This document shows, piece after piece, positions 383-53,648 of a stretch of 55,576 nucleotides of DNA (its first letter is position 1; every line of letters begins with the position of its first letter). Origin of the DNA: Acidobacteriota bacterium (GTDB taxonomy: Bacteria > Acidobacteriota > Terriglobia > Bryobacterales > Bryobacteraceae); assembly GCA_016870915.1 (NCBI GenBank), contig VFZY01000007.1, positions 1 through 55,576 of the forward strand, read 5' to 3'. Both the position numbers and the translations under genes were made by a program. The notes beneath the pieces were generated by a model. The model had not been told where the DNA came from. It saw only the letters and a program-made list of their open reading frames with translations, and searched no databases.

Positions 383-1363
383 ATGCGAACAATTCAAAGA
401 GCGTCGGTGATTGGCACTGGCATGATGGGACCCGGAATCGCGGCAACGCTCGCCTTGGGTGGCATTCGGACCACGATTCTCAGCCGGACAGTGGAATCGG
501 CGGAGCGGGGACTGGAAACTGCCGTGGCACAGGCAAAGCTGCTGGGCGAACACGGCCTGGCTCCGGCGGAACGGGCGGCGGCGGCCCCGGCATTGCTTGG
601 GTGCGGAACGGACTGGGATGCGGCGGCCGGGGACAGCGATCTGGTGGTCGAGTCGGCTCCCGAGAACATGGCTTTCAAACAGGAACTGTTCGCCCGTCTG
701 GACCGCGCGGCGCGGCCAGAGGCGATTCTGGCTTCAAACACCAGCGGACTTTCCATCACGTCCATTGCGTCCCGGTGCGCGAATCCGGAGCGAGTAGTGA
801 CCACGCACTTCTGGAATCCCCCGCACCTGATGCCGCTTGTCGAGATCGTTCGGGGGGAAAAGACGGCCGAAGATGTGGTGGCAACGCTGGGAGTGTTGCT
901 GCGGGATTGTGGCAAGGCGCCGGTGGTGGTGAAGAAGGACCGCCCCGGGCAACTGGGCAACCGGTTGCAGTTGGCGTTGATCCGTGAGGCGGTCAATATC
1001 GTGCAGGAAGGGATCGCGGACCCGGACGACGTGGATACGGCGGCGCGCGCGGGCTTTGGGCTGCGATTGCCGGTCTACGGCATCTTCGAGCATCAGGACA
1101 TGGTGGGGCTCGACATGGGGTATGCGATTGCCGACTATGTCTGCCGCGATCTGTTCAGCGAGCCGCGGGCACCGGAACTGTTTGCGGAAAAGGTAGCGGC
1201 CGGGCACCTGGGAGCCAAGGTGGGCCGGGGATTCCACGACTGGACCGTGAAAGACGCGGCGGCCGTGCGGTCCCGCCGCGACAAGTTCGTGTGCGAGTTT
1301 CTGAAGTCGGAGTTTGGCGAGGTCTACCGGACGCCGCCAAACCCTGCCCGCGACAACAGCTAG
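383..1363 (+). CDS. 3-hydroxyacyl-CoA dehydrogenase family protein
   Basis: This 326-residue protein is a cytoplasmic NAD-dependent dehydrogenase of the 3-hydroxyacyl-CoA dehydrogenase / lambda-crystallin type. The N-terminal Rossmann fold begins at once with VIGTGMMGPGIA (GxGxxG). SNTSGLSI and the catalytic-His motif HFWNPPHLMPLVEIV follow mid-protein, and a C-terminal helical domain with a GRGFHDW segment ends it. ATG at 383 was chosen because the family starts at this point. An in-frame extension to 221 runs through the hairpin and is low complexity. No good ribosome binding site is seen, since the hairpin occupies that place. The stop overlaps the stop of the convergent nuclease gene. The exact substrate, a beta-hydroxyacyl-CoA or another beta-hydroxy acid, cannot be read from the sequence. 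Confidence 0.85.
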   Translation: MRTIQRASVIGTGMMGPGIAATLALGGIRTTILSRTVESAERGLETAVAQAKLLGEHGLAPAERAAAAPALLGCGTDWDAAAGDSDLVVESAPENMAFKQELFARLDRAARPEAILASNTSGLSITSIASRCANPERVVTTHFWNPPHLMPLVEIVRGEKTAEDVVATLGVLLRDCGKAPVVVKKDRPGQLGNRLQLALIREAVNIVQEGIADPDDVDTAARAGFGLRLPVYGIFEHQDMVGLDMGYAIADYVCRDLFSEPRAPELFAEKVAAGHLGAKVGRGFHDWTVKDAAAVRSRRDKFVCEFLKSEFGEVYRTPPNPARDNS

Positions 1364-4068
1364 AAGCGGCCGTTCAGTACTCGGATGGAGTAACTGGAGA
1401 CGCCGGCGCCGTTGGTGAGCAGGCGCAAAGGGACTTGGATCATTTCCCCGGTGTCAAGGCCGCGCTGCAGAGTGATGTACGGCACACCCTCCTCCACGCC
1501 CGAACTGCCTTCCAGCGTGACGCCGCGTGGCAGGCCGCCCACCAGGATCTGCAGCGGACCGCCGATGGACCTGCCGTTATTCGTGATCTTGATGGTGGCT
1601 TCCAGCCGGCGCGTGGTCCGGTTGTAGACAAAGGCCGGCTCTTGAATGGCGAGCGAAGCGGTTGCGTCCGTGGGGGCATGGGCAAGATAGACCACCGGAT
1701 GATCGTGATCCGTCAGACGGAGCGGGGATGCGGCGTCGTTGCGCGCGATCTCCGGGAAATCAGCGTTGGACCTTCCGTAGGCCATTCGCGTCACGATGGC
1801 GGCCAATGACTGGGAGGCCAGGGCGTGATCAAGGGTCTGGGCGTTGCCGTCGAACGAGTAGGAGTAGCGTTCGCTGGCGGGAAGCAGCAGACCCAGGTTG
1901 GTGAGGTCCGGGTTGACTACATCGGGCGACGACAGCAGCACTTCGGATGGCAGGGCCGGTTTGCCCATGATGGCGCCAGTCACATCCACATACCCGTCGT
2001 TGAATTCGAAGGCATTGTAATCGCCGAGAACCAGCACACGGCCGTTGGACGCCTGAAGCTGCTGAACCAGGCCGGCCACGAAATCGGCTCCGTCCTTGCG
2101 CTTGGCGCGGCGGCGGGCACTGGTTTCGATATTGGACAGAGCCAGCAGATGGAGGTTGACAACGATGATCTTGCGGGAGGCGCCGCCGCCGGGGGGCGTA
2201 ACGGTGGCTCGCAGGACCAGCGGCGGACGGTCGAAGGTGGTCTCCAGTTGGTTGTTTTCCGGGTTCAGGAACTGCCTGGCGTCGCCTTCCTGCGTGATCT
2301 GATCCACGGTGATTCCGCGATTGCCGCGCACCAGGTATCCCACGTCGATGCCGCCGATGTCGTTGCCTTCGACCAGGAAAGACTGATACGAAAGCGAGGG
2401 ATCATCCTGGGCCAGTTTGGCGGCGATGGCCTGGAGGGCGCCGATGTGCTCGGCTTCCTGCACCGCGATGATATCCGGGGAGTTCAGGACGTTGCGGATG
2501 GAGAGCGACAGCTTGTTCAGACGGTTGATGAACGCTTGCGACGTGAGTTGGGTGTCGCCGCCGGGGTCATCCGCCGTATCGTAGAAGCGTTGCAGGTTCA
2601 TCGACGCCACGGTGAACTCGGAGTCGAGCGGCGCGGGCGCGGCGCCGGCGGAAGGCAGGGCCGGATTGCCCAGAGGCGTGGTGGGCAGCAGCGTGTGGGT
2701 GCGGAAGCCAAAGTCGAGCGGTCCGGTGGCGTTGACAAAGACCGTTCCCGCGGCGGTGTTGGCGGCGGCGACACCGGTGATGCCGTCGCTATCCACGCGC
2801 AGGCGTTCCGGGTTCGAATCGAAGCGAGGTGTTCCAACCGGGGCTCCGAGGGGCAGAGCGTCGGGAAGGATGAGACCCGGTTCCCGGAACGGACGGGCCG
2901 TGCCGGTGAGTACGGCGTAGAAAACACCGTTCGAGGTGGACGTAGCGTTGGCCTCGGAGAGGCTGCCTTGGGTGGGTGCCACGGCGGTGAGCGACACAGC
3001 GGTGACCAGCATGCCTTCGTAGCGCTCGAGGGGCTGGGTCTTTTCAAGATCGGTGCCGCCGCGGGTGAAATCGGCGGCGTTGAGGACGATGGGCGCGGGC
3101 AGAGGGTGACCGGTGGAGAGTTGGGAGACCGTGGGTCCGGTGATCTCGGTGAGGGCCATGCCGTCTGGGTCTGTCGCGGCGCCCTTGAACTCGACTACGC
3201 TCCCGGTGACTTGCACGCGATTGCCGACGGCCGCGGTGGCCGGGGGCGCTGAACTGGTGAAGACAAAGATGCCTTCCGAGGTGGCGGGATTGGCATCGTA
3301 TTCGTTTTCGGCGTTCTGCAGGAAGAAGCCGTTCGACTTGCGCGCGGTAACTATGCCTTGGGTTGTGACACTCTGGCCGGTGAGCGGCGACGAACTGCCC
3401 GCGCCCTGGATGGCGTTGATGGAGGTGAGCGTGGGGATGACCACGCCGCACAGGTTTTCGACACTGCTATTGCGGGGGTTCGGCGGGGTGGCGGAAAAGT
3501 CCGCGCTGTTGCTGTTGGTGTCGGTGCAACCCTGGTTGCCGCGCATCGCGGCGTTGGTGTTCGAGGGCGCCGGTGCGGGTCCCGTTCCTTCGAACAGATT
3601 CGCCGTGGTGCCATAGCCCACGAAATCGACGATGCGGCCGCCCGAGGTGCCCTCACCCGCGGCGAGGGCAGTTCCGCAGTTGCTGCTGAGCAGGGCGAAC
3701 TTTCCCGCAGTGGCGCCCGCGGCGGTGAGGCCGGTGGCGTCGGGCGTTGGAAGGTTCTGCGTGCCGCCCGTGCCCTGAGCCAATTGGACCAGGTAATGCC
3801 GGTGCGGCTCAATGGTGCCGGTGAGAGTAGTCGACTGGTTGTTGCCCAGCGTGAACACACCGGTCGCCGAGGCGTACTGAAGACACCAGCCACTGAGACT
3901 GACCGGATTGTCGCCCTTGTTGAGAAGCTCCACGAAATCGTACCGGTACGTGGCGCCAGAGTTGCCGCCGCCCCCGTAGAGCTGGCTGATGATGACCTGA
4001 GCTGGGAGTGTGGCGGAGGCCGCAAGCGCGGCCGACAGGAAGGCGCGGACGAATCCGGAAGTGAACAT
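1360..4068 (-). CDS. secreted lamin-tail-domain endonuclease/exonuclease/phosphatase family protein
   Basis: This 902-residue exported protein has a signal peptide (residues 1-24, ending TLPAQ). A lamin-tail domain (about 25-155; QVIISQLYGGGG, YDFVELLN) follows. Next is an OB-fold-like region of the YhcR type (about 215-330; QSVTTQGIVTA, GNRVQVTGSVVEF). An endonuclease/exonuclease/phosphatase domain (about 485-780) contains FTVASMNLQRF, DIIAVQEAE, VVNLHLLA, VLGDYNAF and LTDHDHPVVY, which supply the usual metal and catalytic residues. The tail resembles an Ig-like domain. Proteins of this build act as extracellular nucleases. ATG 4068 is preferred over an in-frame TTG at 4077 because it directly begins the signal peptide. 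A likely promoter lies so close upstream that the mRNA may be leaderless. Confidence 0.88.
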   Translation of the reverse strand: MFTSGFVRAFLSAALAASATLPAQVIISQLYGGGGNSGATYRYDFVELLNKGDNPVSLSGWCLQYASATGVFTLGNNQSTTLTGTIEPHRHYLVQLAQGTGGTQNLPTPDATGLTAAGATAGKFALLSSNCGTALAAGEGTSGGRIVDFVGYGTTANLFEGTGPAPAPSNTNAAMRGNQGCTDTNSNSADFSATPPNPRNSSVENLCGVVIPTLTSINAIQGAGSSSPLTGQSVTTQGIVTARKSNGFFLQNAENEYDANPATSEGIFVFTSSAPPATAAVGNRVQVTGSVVEFKGAATDPDGMALTEITGPTVSQLSTGHPLPAPIVLNAADFTRGGTDLEKTQPLERYEGMLVTAVSLTAVAPTQGSLSEANATSTSNGVFYAVLTGTARPFREPGLILPDALPLGAPVGTPRFDSNPERLRVDSDGITGVAAANTAAGTVFVNATGPLDFGFRTHTLLPTTPLGNPALPSAGAAPAPLDSEFTVASMNLQRFYDTADDPGGDTQLTSQAFINRLNKLSLSIRNVLNSPDIIAVQEAEHIGALQAIAAKLAQDDPSLSYQSFLVEGNDIGGIDVGYLVRGNRGITVDQITQEGDARQFLNPENNQLETTFDRPPLVLRATVTPPGGGASRKIIVVNLHLLALSNIETSARRRAKRKDGADFVAGLVQQLQASNGRVLVLGDYNAFEFNDGYVDVTGAIMGKPALPSEVLLSSPDVVNPDLTNLGLLLPASERYSYSFDGNAQTLDHALASQSLAAIVTRMAYGRSNADFPEIARNDAASPLRLTDHDHPVVYLAHAPTDATASLAIQEPAFVYNRTTRRLEATIKITNNGRSIGGPLQILVGGLPRGVTLEGSSGVEEGVPYITLQRGLDTGEMIQVPLRLLTNGAGVSSYSIRVLNGRF

Positions 4069-7303: not shown

Positions 7304-7822
7304 CTACTTAAGGGCCGCTTCGATCGCGCCGGTGAGTTCCTTGGACTCGGGTTGGACGTTCGAGTCAAACTTTCGGATGACCTTGCCGTCGCGTCCGGCC
7401 AGGTACTTGGTAAAGTTCCAGCCGGGCTCGCCGGCGGCCGTGGCGAGGAACTGATACAGCGGGTCCCGTCCGCCGCCTTTCACCTGAATCTTCGCCATCA
7501 TGGGGAATGTCACTTTGTAGGTTCGAGTGCAGAACGTCTTGATTTCGTCGTTCGACCCCGGCTCCTGGCCGCCAAAGTCATTGGATGGCACGGCGACCAC
7601 CACCAATCCCTGATCCTTGTACTTCTTGTAGATGGACTCCAGACCGGAGTACTGAGGGGTGAACCCTCACTGGCTGGCGGTGTTGACGAGCAAAACAACC
7701 TTGCCCTTGTAGCCGGCGAGGGGTGTCTCGCCTCCATCGATGGAGCGAAGCTTGAAGTTGTGAATCGTTTGGGCGGAGATCATGCCGGTGAGGGCGGGAA
7801 GGAGAAGGGCGAGCCGGTTCAT
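7304..7822 (-). CDS. exported selenocysteine-containing glutathione peroxidase
   Basis: The 172-residue product is a peroxidase that reduces hydroperoxides with a thiol donor. It begins with a signal peptide (to about residue 18, ISAQ). An in-frame TGA at 7667-7669 is codon 52, inside NTASQ-U-GFTPQYSG, exactly the catalytic Cys/Sec position of the family. The rest of the catalytic tetrad is intact: Gln86 in GGQEPG, Trp135 and Asn136 in WNFTKY. The frame is open on both sides of the TGA, and the total length is normal for the family. A SECIS-like hairpin follows the TGA. Conventional gene calling would report only a truncated C-terminal fragment starting at 7606. ATG 7822 starts the signal peptide. 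The carboxypeptidase-regulatory gene diverges 57 bases away. Confidence 0.9.
7636..7669 (-). promoter_or_regulatory. bacterial SECIS-like element downstream of the Sec UGA
   Basis: Starting at the UGA (7669-7667, minus strand), 16 bases lead to a 5-bp stem ACUCC/GGAGU closing the loop GGUCU (hairpin 7636-7650). A GGUCU apical loop on a short stem about 20 bases after the UGA is the arrangement known for the SelB-binding hairpin of E. coli fdhF mRNA. A second, mutually exclusive stem (TGAGGG with CCCTCA) can form right at the UGA. Confidence 0.8.
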
Positions 7823-53124: not shown

Positions 53125-53160
53125 CCGCACAGGCGGCTTGGTGACCACGCTTCTCGTTGC

Positions 53161-53648
<488 letters not shown>

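Follow-up and report, generated by a model that had tools for sequence, protein, structure and literature searches.

The window, a 55,576-nucleotide stretch of DNA from an Acidobacteriota bacterium, very probably carries a gene for a selenoenzyme of the monomeric glutathione peroxidase (GPx) family, in which the UGA at codon 52 is read as selenocysteine (Sec), resolution is probably of the thioredoxin type through Cys98, and the protein probably works outside the cytoplasm. The gene lies on the minus strand, with an ATG start, a single in-frame TGA and a TAG stop, and its product has 172 residues when the TGA is read through (Table 1). An earlier note on this DNA had claimed that the frame is broken only at the catalytic Cys/Sec site of the family and that standard gene calling would truncate the gene. 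Both claims hold. In a phmmer alignment, the interrupted codon lies opposite the Cys in NVASKC, the corresponding motif in yeast Hyr1 (3cmi), and the site reads UGFT, a UxxT motif. Mechanical ORF calling, in turn, yields two pieces, one of 51 amino acids (positions 7667-7822) and one of 100 amino acids (7304-7606), so that a probably working selenoenzyme gene is recorded as two fragments. Taken at face value, these two ORFs would mean that the UGA is a genuine stop and that the halves are separate short proteins. We consider this extremely improbable, since neither half spans the predicted fold, conservation continues across the UGA, and a hairpin of the bacterial SECIS type accompanies UGA and not Cys.

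Table 1. Features of the Sec-containing GPx gene, in window positions
Feature	Position	Strand	Basis
Probable Sec-containing glutathione-peroxidase-family gene	7304..7822	-	Translation; PF00255 131.4 bits (curated cut-off 27); mean pLDDT of the AlphaFold2 model 89.7
In-frame UGA, codon 52, catalytic Sec position	7667..7669	-	Alignment to the Cys of Hyr1 and to the family Cys codons
Predicted bacterial SECIS hairpin, ACUCC-GGUCU-GGAGU	7636..7650	-	7/7 family Sec genes, 0/175 Cys rows
Hydrophobic N-terminus, probable signal peptide, residues 1-19 MNRLALLLPALTGMISAQT	7766..7822	-	Read from the sequence
Codon of Cys98, putative resolving Cys (FCTRTYKVTFP)	7529..7531	-	Alignment to the FC of Hyr1 (3cmi); invariant in 24/24

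By profile and by fold, the product is a member of the GPx family. It matches PF00255 far above the curated cut-off (Table 1). With two more specific NCBIfam GPx models it stays under the cut-offs, at 178.4 (cut-off 270) and 117.1 (cut-off 207.3). The best PDB match of its AlphaFold2 model in Foldseek is poplar GPX5 (2p5q_A; TM 0.84/0.89), and the matches shown were GPx structures or designs on the GPx fold, GPx4 structures being close as well. The catalytic tetrad of GPx is defined as Sec or Cys, Gln, Trp and Asn. We aligned the window GPx with 23 Cys-type homologues and found all four positions in place. Position 52 is TGA in the window gene and Cys in the 23 others, while Gln86, Trp135 and Asn136, which the earlier note had described as intact, are invariant in 24 of 24 sequences, as is Cys98. 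The earlier note had called the enzyme periplasmic on account of a signal peptide; what the sequence shows is a hydrophobic N-terminus, which suggests export of the protein from the cytoplasm. In the model, mean pLDDT is 68 for residues 1 to 10 and 70 for residues 11 to 20.

An in-frame UGA at a redox site where homologues have Cys is the mark of a bacterial selenoprotein, and the window gene bears it. Two GPx genes from the family (L140 and L141), whose products are 66% and 65% identical to the window GPx, share its motif and differ from it in having TGC for TGA and no SECIS hairpin. With 60% and 57% identity, MAGs of Acidobacteria are the nearest named relatives, which agrees with a probably acidobacterial origin of the genome. 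Across the phylum, 149 of 396 genomes had a GPx match at E 1e-20, and among the matches listed TGA was present only in the window's own genome (G000) and in G152, which belongs to another family of the phylum. Within the window's family, 140 of 200 genomes matched at E 1e-15, and seven of them, spanning four genera, have a TGA in the GPx gene: G000, G404, G418, G481, G510 (a fragment at a contig end), G572 and G580. In the family Sec-GPx genes read, and in G152, the TGA occupies the same codon. A scan of named genomes read Cys at 80 of 80 loci; its patterns contain the motif in its Cys form, so that it leans towards Cys genes. A plasmid search gave 184 records, all below 60% identity.

For comparison of the two forms, we used a set of 182 rows made up of 175 Cys rows (173 distinct proteins) and seven TGA rows, including the G152 gene (L172) and leaving out L145, L152 and L165, which are shorter copies of L173 to L175. 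The G510 fragment (L171) was counted among the seven family Sec genes for the hairpin and stood outside the trees. Every fetched GPx locus read has Cys or TGA at codon 52. A different stop or a frameshift in relatives, which the earlier note had named as evidence against Sec, did not appear; the matches listed have no stop or one TGA. The TGA might instead mark a pseudogene or a sequencing error, in which a Cys codon (TGC or TGT) recently turned into TGA. Most relatives read do have Cys here, and TGC is a single base away from TGA. We rejected this reading as very improbable, because the TGA recurs with an invariant downstream hairpin in seven family genomes of four genera, nothing else in the frame is damaged, the catalytic residues are preserved, and the genome contains Sec machinery. 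The UGA almost certainly inserts selenocysteine at the active site.

Reading UGA as Sec had led to the prediction of selA, selB, selC and selD in the same genome, and all four were found in G000, an assembly of 6.6 Mb in 367 contigs that is 96.9% complete. The tRNA-Sec gene is located at C119:11195-11285 (70.7 bits; called SeC(tca) by ARAGORN). The protein genes score over their curated cut-offs: selA on contig C111 at 477.6 bits against 267.9, selB on C27 at 378.5 against 242.25, and selD on C318 at 361.9 against 125. In the window itself, a tRNA-Ser (gct) at 53159-53253 also scores with the tRNA-Sec model, at 44.2 bits, which is below the cut-off. The family presents a contrast: selB is widespread, with 166 of 200 genomes scoring over its cut-off, six of the seven Sec-GPx genomes among them, whereas Sec-GPx is rare (7 of 200, or 7 of 237 by the exact SECIS pattern). 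One Sec-GPx genome, G572 (79% complete), was absent from the selB matches at E 1e-50 and has tRNA-Sec. Of 15 genomes tested for tRNA-Sec, 14 have it, among them each of the seven Sec-GPx genomes in the set (six from the family plus G152); the one without it is G571, a Cys-GPx genome. Since selB is also present in most Cys-GPx genomes, the Sec trait by itself is no predictor of Sec-GPx.

The earlier note had also pointed to a hairpin with a GGUCU loop at SECIS distance from the UGA. Indeed, the loop (7645-7641) is enclosed by stem halves at 7650-7646 and 7640-7636, with 21 nt between UGA and loop, and the exact motif separates the family's Sec genes from the Cys rows completely (Table 1). A 20-nt block, CAGTACTCCGGTCTGGAGTC, is invariant across all seven family Sec genes, and the flanking codons mostly vary. 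Between two groups of Sec genes (four rows against two), nucleotide identity is 0.98 in the SECIS block and 0.61-0.82 in 11 other stretches. A search of 237 family genomes for the pattern TGAGGNNTNACNNNNCAGTACTCCGGTCTGGAGTC found it in seven, precisely those with Sec-GPx; the backward control of the pattern gave zero in the rows listed. Among the 175 Cys rows, the GGTCT loop occurs in 15, the full 5-bp stem in one and both together in none. The row with the stem, L198 from G529, is a Cys-type GPx with a GGCCT loop at the SECIS place; no selB match was found in the G529 genome (84% complete) at E 1e-50. This stem is possibly a fossil SECIS, or else chance, at one in 175 rows. The Sec-GPx gene of G152 has one additional codon ahead of its hairpin, which is shifted to 24 nt from the UGA and reads ACTCC-AGTTT-GGAGT.

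A model of the bacterial SECIS, as set out in PMC13188914 (Fig. 2), has a loop of 3-9 nt, a stem of 4-16 bp, a G in the first two loop positions, a distance of 16-37 nt from the UGA and an MFE of at most -7.5 kcal/mol. The window hairpin agrees in size, loop and spacing (a 5-nt GGUCU loop, 5 bp and 21 nt). Its energy, -5.3 alone and -6.1 as a 25-nt fold, is short of the -7.5 kcal/mol limit; the 25-nt folds of L174 and L175 are at -7.7. Over 54 nt from the UGA, the window sequence has an MFE fold of -15.5 that is a different one, without the SECIS hairpin. When six family Sec genes were folded from the UGA, the MFE fold held the hairpin in four (L173, L174, L175 and L170) and was without it in the window gene (L030) and L169. 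Of 5000 synonymous shuffles of the window gene, made with codon weights that were assumed rather than measured, 296 gave a SECIS-like hairpin of equal or greater stability. As a single sequence, the window hairpin is only mildly unusual. Comparison, in turn, lifts the SECIS far above chance, since all seven family Sec genes have the exact motif and none of the 175 Cys rows does. The case for the SECIS lies in this comparison, the single-sequence signal being weak.

To place the Sec and Cys forms relative to each other, we used GPx trees of 83 and 40 rows; in the larger, the columns of the Sec codon and of the hairpin were masked. In the 83-row tree, a supported group of 11 rows unites the window GPx, L173, L174 and L175 with seven Cys rows. 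A second place, beside the Cys row L164, is taken by L169 and L170, and L172 sits apart from both on a long branch. This tree requires four changes between Sec and Cys, at least three of them forced by starred branches; with few columns and a bootstrap that is not settled, it leaves the number of switches uncertain. A single clade of the six family Sec rows was rejected (AU p 0.0188; six Sec rows against 34, in a set of 40 rows picked after the first tree). A single clade of the four Sec rows of the window clade was not rejected (p 0.201). That GPx switched between Cys and Sec several times within one bacterial family, with seven genes sharing a 20-nt SECIS block, is a reading for which we find the balance even. 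The shared SECIS may have arisen in one of three ways: the same SECIS evolved repeatedly under a joint protein and RNA constraint, or lineages exchanged a segment with Sec and SECIS, or an ancestral Sec disappeared on many occasions (compare the L198 stem with its changed loop). One SECIS common to Sec genes outside a single clade is an oddity worth following, and the close Sec/Cys pairs of the family are material for asking when a peroxidase acquires or gives up selenium at its active site.

The residues of the product also bear on its reductant. In the phmmer alignment, Cys98 is opposite the FC of Hyr1, where Cys82 is located, which we take to be the resolving Cys of Hyr1. The window GPx therefore has a Cys at the FC resolving position, as in the thioredoxin-type (Hyr1-like) enzymes, and Cys98 is the putative resolving residue. 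No match to gshB was found in G000, which for a 97% complete assembly is not proof that glutathione is absent. The single GCS2-family gene of the genome is over the cut-offs for carboxylate-amine ligase models (NF010039, 446.2 against 371; TIGR02050, 308.8 against 176.4); with every glutamate-cysteine ligase model listed, it falls short of the cut-off. Because Cys98 is at the Hyr1 resolving position, gshB has no match and the GCS2 gene scores in this way, a thioredoxin-like reductant appears likelier than glutathione for this enzyme. The designation "glutathione peroxidase" in the earlier note is thus right for the family (PF00255), and glutathione as the reductant is less likely, in view of Cys98 and of a genome in which gshB found no match. 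It could still be that UGA is Sec and the protein is a true glutathione-dependent peroxidase in which Cys98 is unused for resolution. The family name of PF00255 and the close matches to GPx4 structures speak for this; we regard it as unlikely, since Cys98 is invariant in all 24 aligned sequences and lies at the FC of Hyr1, gshB is unmatched in G000, and the best structural match is poplar GPX5, which has Cys at the peroxidatic position and depends on thioredoxin.

We propose the following mechanism for this probable selenoenzyme. SelB bound to the GGUCU-loop hairpin just past the UGA would deliver Sec-tRNA(Sec), as the sel genes and the hairpin indicate, and UGA 52 would be decoded as selenocysteine. 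By analogy with the family, this Sec, activated by Gln86, Trp135 and Asn136, would reduce H2O2 or lipid hydroperoxides. With Cys98, the resulting selenenic acid probably forms a selenenylsulfide that is then reduced by a thioredoxin-fold protein rather than by two glutathiones. Judging from the hydrophobic N-terminus, the enzyme would act outside the cytoplasm.

Among known enzymes, yeast Hyr1/Gpx3 (3cmi) and poplar GPX5 (2p5q) have the same GPx fold as the window protein. Hyr1 is also alike in its catalytic residues and in the Cys opposite Cys98, but it has Cys at the peroxidatic position where the window GPx is predicted to have Sec. Mammalian GPx4 differs from the window GPx in that its SECIS is outside the coding sequence and its reduction is by glutathione. 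It is alike in fold (TMq about 0.80-0.84) and in having Sec at the active site, as the title of 6elw states.

Sec-GPx is already known as an enzyme type. A bacterial form (GPX-like protein, PF00255, UxxT) was tabulated in 2006 with one sequence (PMC1794560, Table 1), and Table 3 of the same paper names Gpx for Treponema denticola. Bacterial Sec-GPx is also tabulated in PMC9312934 and, under "predicted with high confidence," in a 2026 table (PMC13188914). As far as these tables go, the published proteins are like the window GPx in family and in the Sec at the catalytic position of a UxxT motif, a likeness drawn from the tables; the window gene differs in coming from an acidobacterial genome. 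For the acidobacterium Occallatibacter riparius, one table gives three selenoproteins (PMC12013277). We found no acidobacterial Sec-GPx in the literature searched, which is no proof of its being unpublished. We regard the window gene as a well-supported new example of a known enzyme type.

The earlier note expected other selenoproteins in the same genome, and we regard six genes, selD and five of the AhpC-TSA family, as candidates. In selD (L176; G000:C318, match 938-1861, minus strand), an in-frame TGA lies in AAGUASK, and after it the MFE fold has a stem, GCCCAAC/GUUGGGC, whose loop is GGU; SelD is therefore probably a selenoprotein itself. Among 20 AhpC-TSA-family matches in G000, five have one in-frame TGA, in the contexts FTGGUT (L239), TPGUT (L240 and L241), DWUPYC (L245) and TUPPF (L256), sites which we take to be the catalytic positions of their families. 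A simple hairpin scan (stem of at least 5 bp, 16-37 nt) found a SECIS-like stem in three of the five, L239, L241 and L245, whereas L240 and L256 gave none. L256 (G000:C64:20313-20507, minus strand) is a deiodinase homologue: its score with T4_deiodinase (PF00837) is 103.5 bits, for a cut-off of 27, and with NF038285 it stays under the cut-off of 250 at 198.8 bits (165 residues given). With GPx and SelD, the families searched give seven selenoprotein candidates, and the genome looks rich in selenoproteins. The peroxiredoxin-like gene L239 (G000:C318:2102-2479, plus strand) is about 240 bases from the selD match, in divergent orientation.
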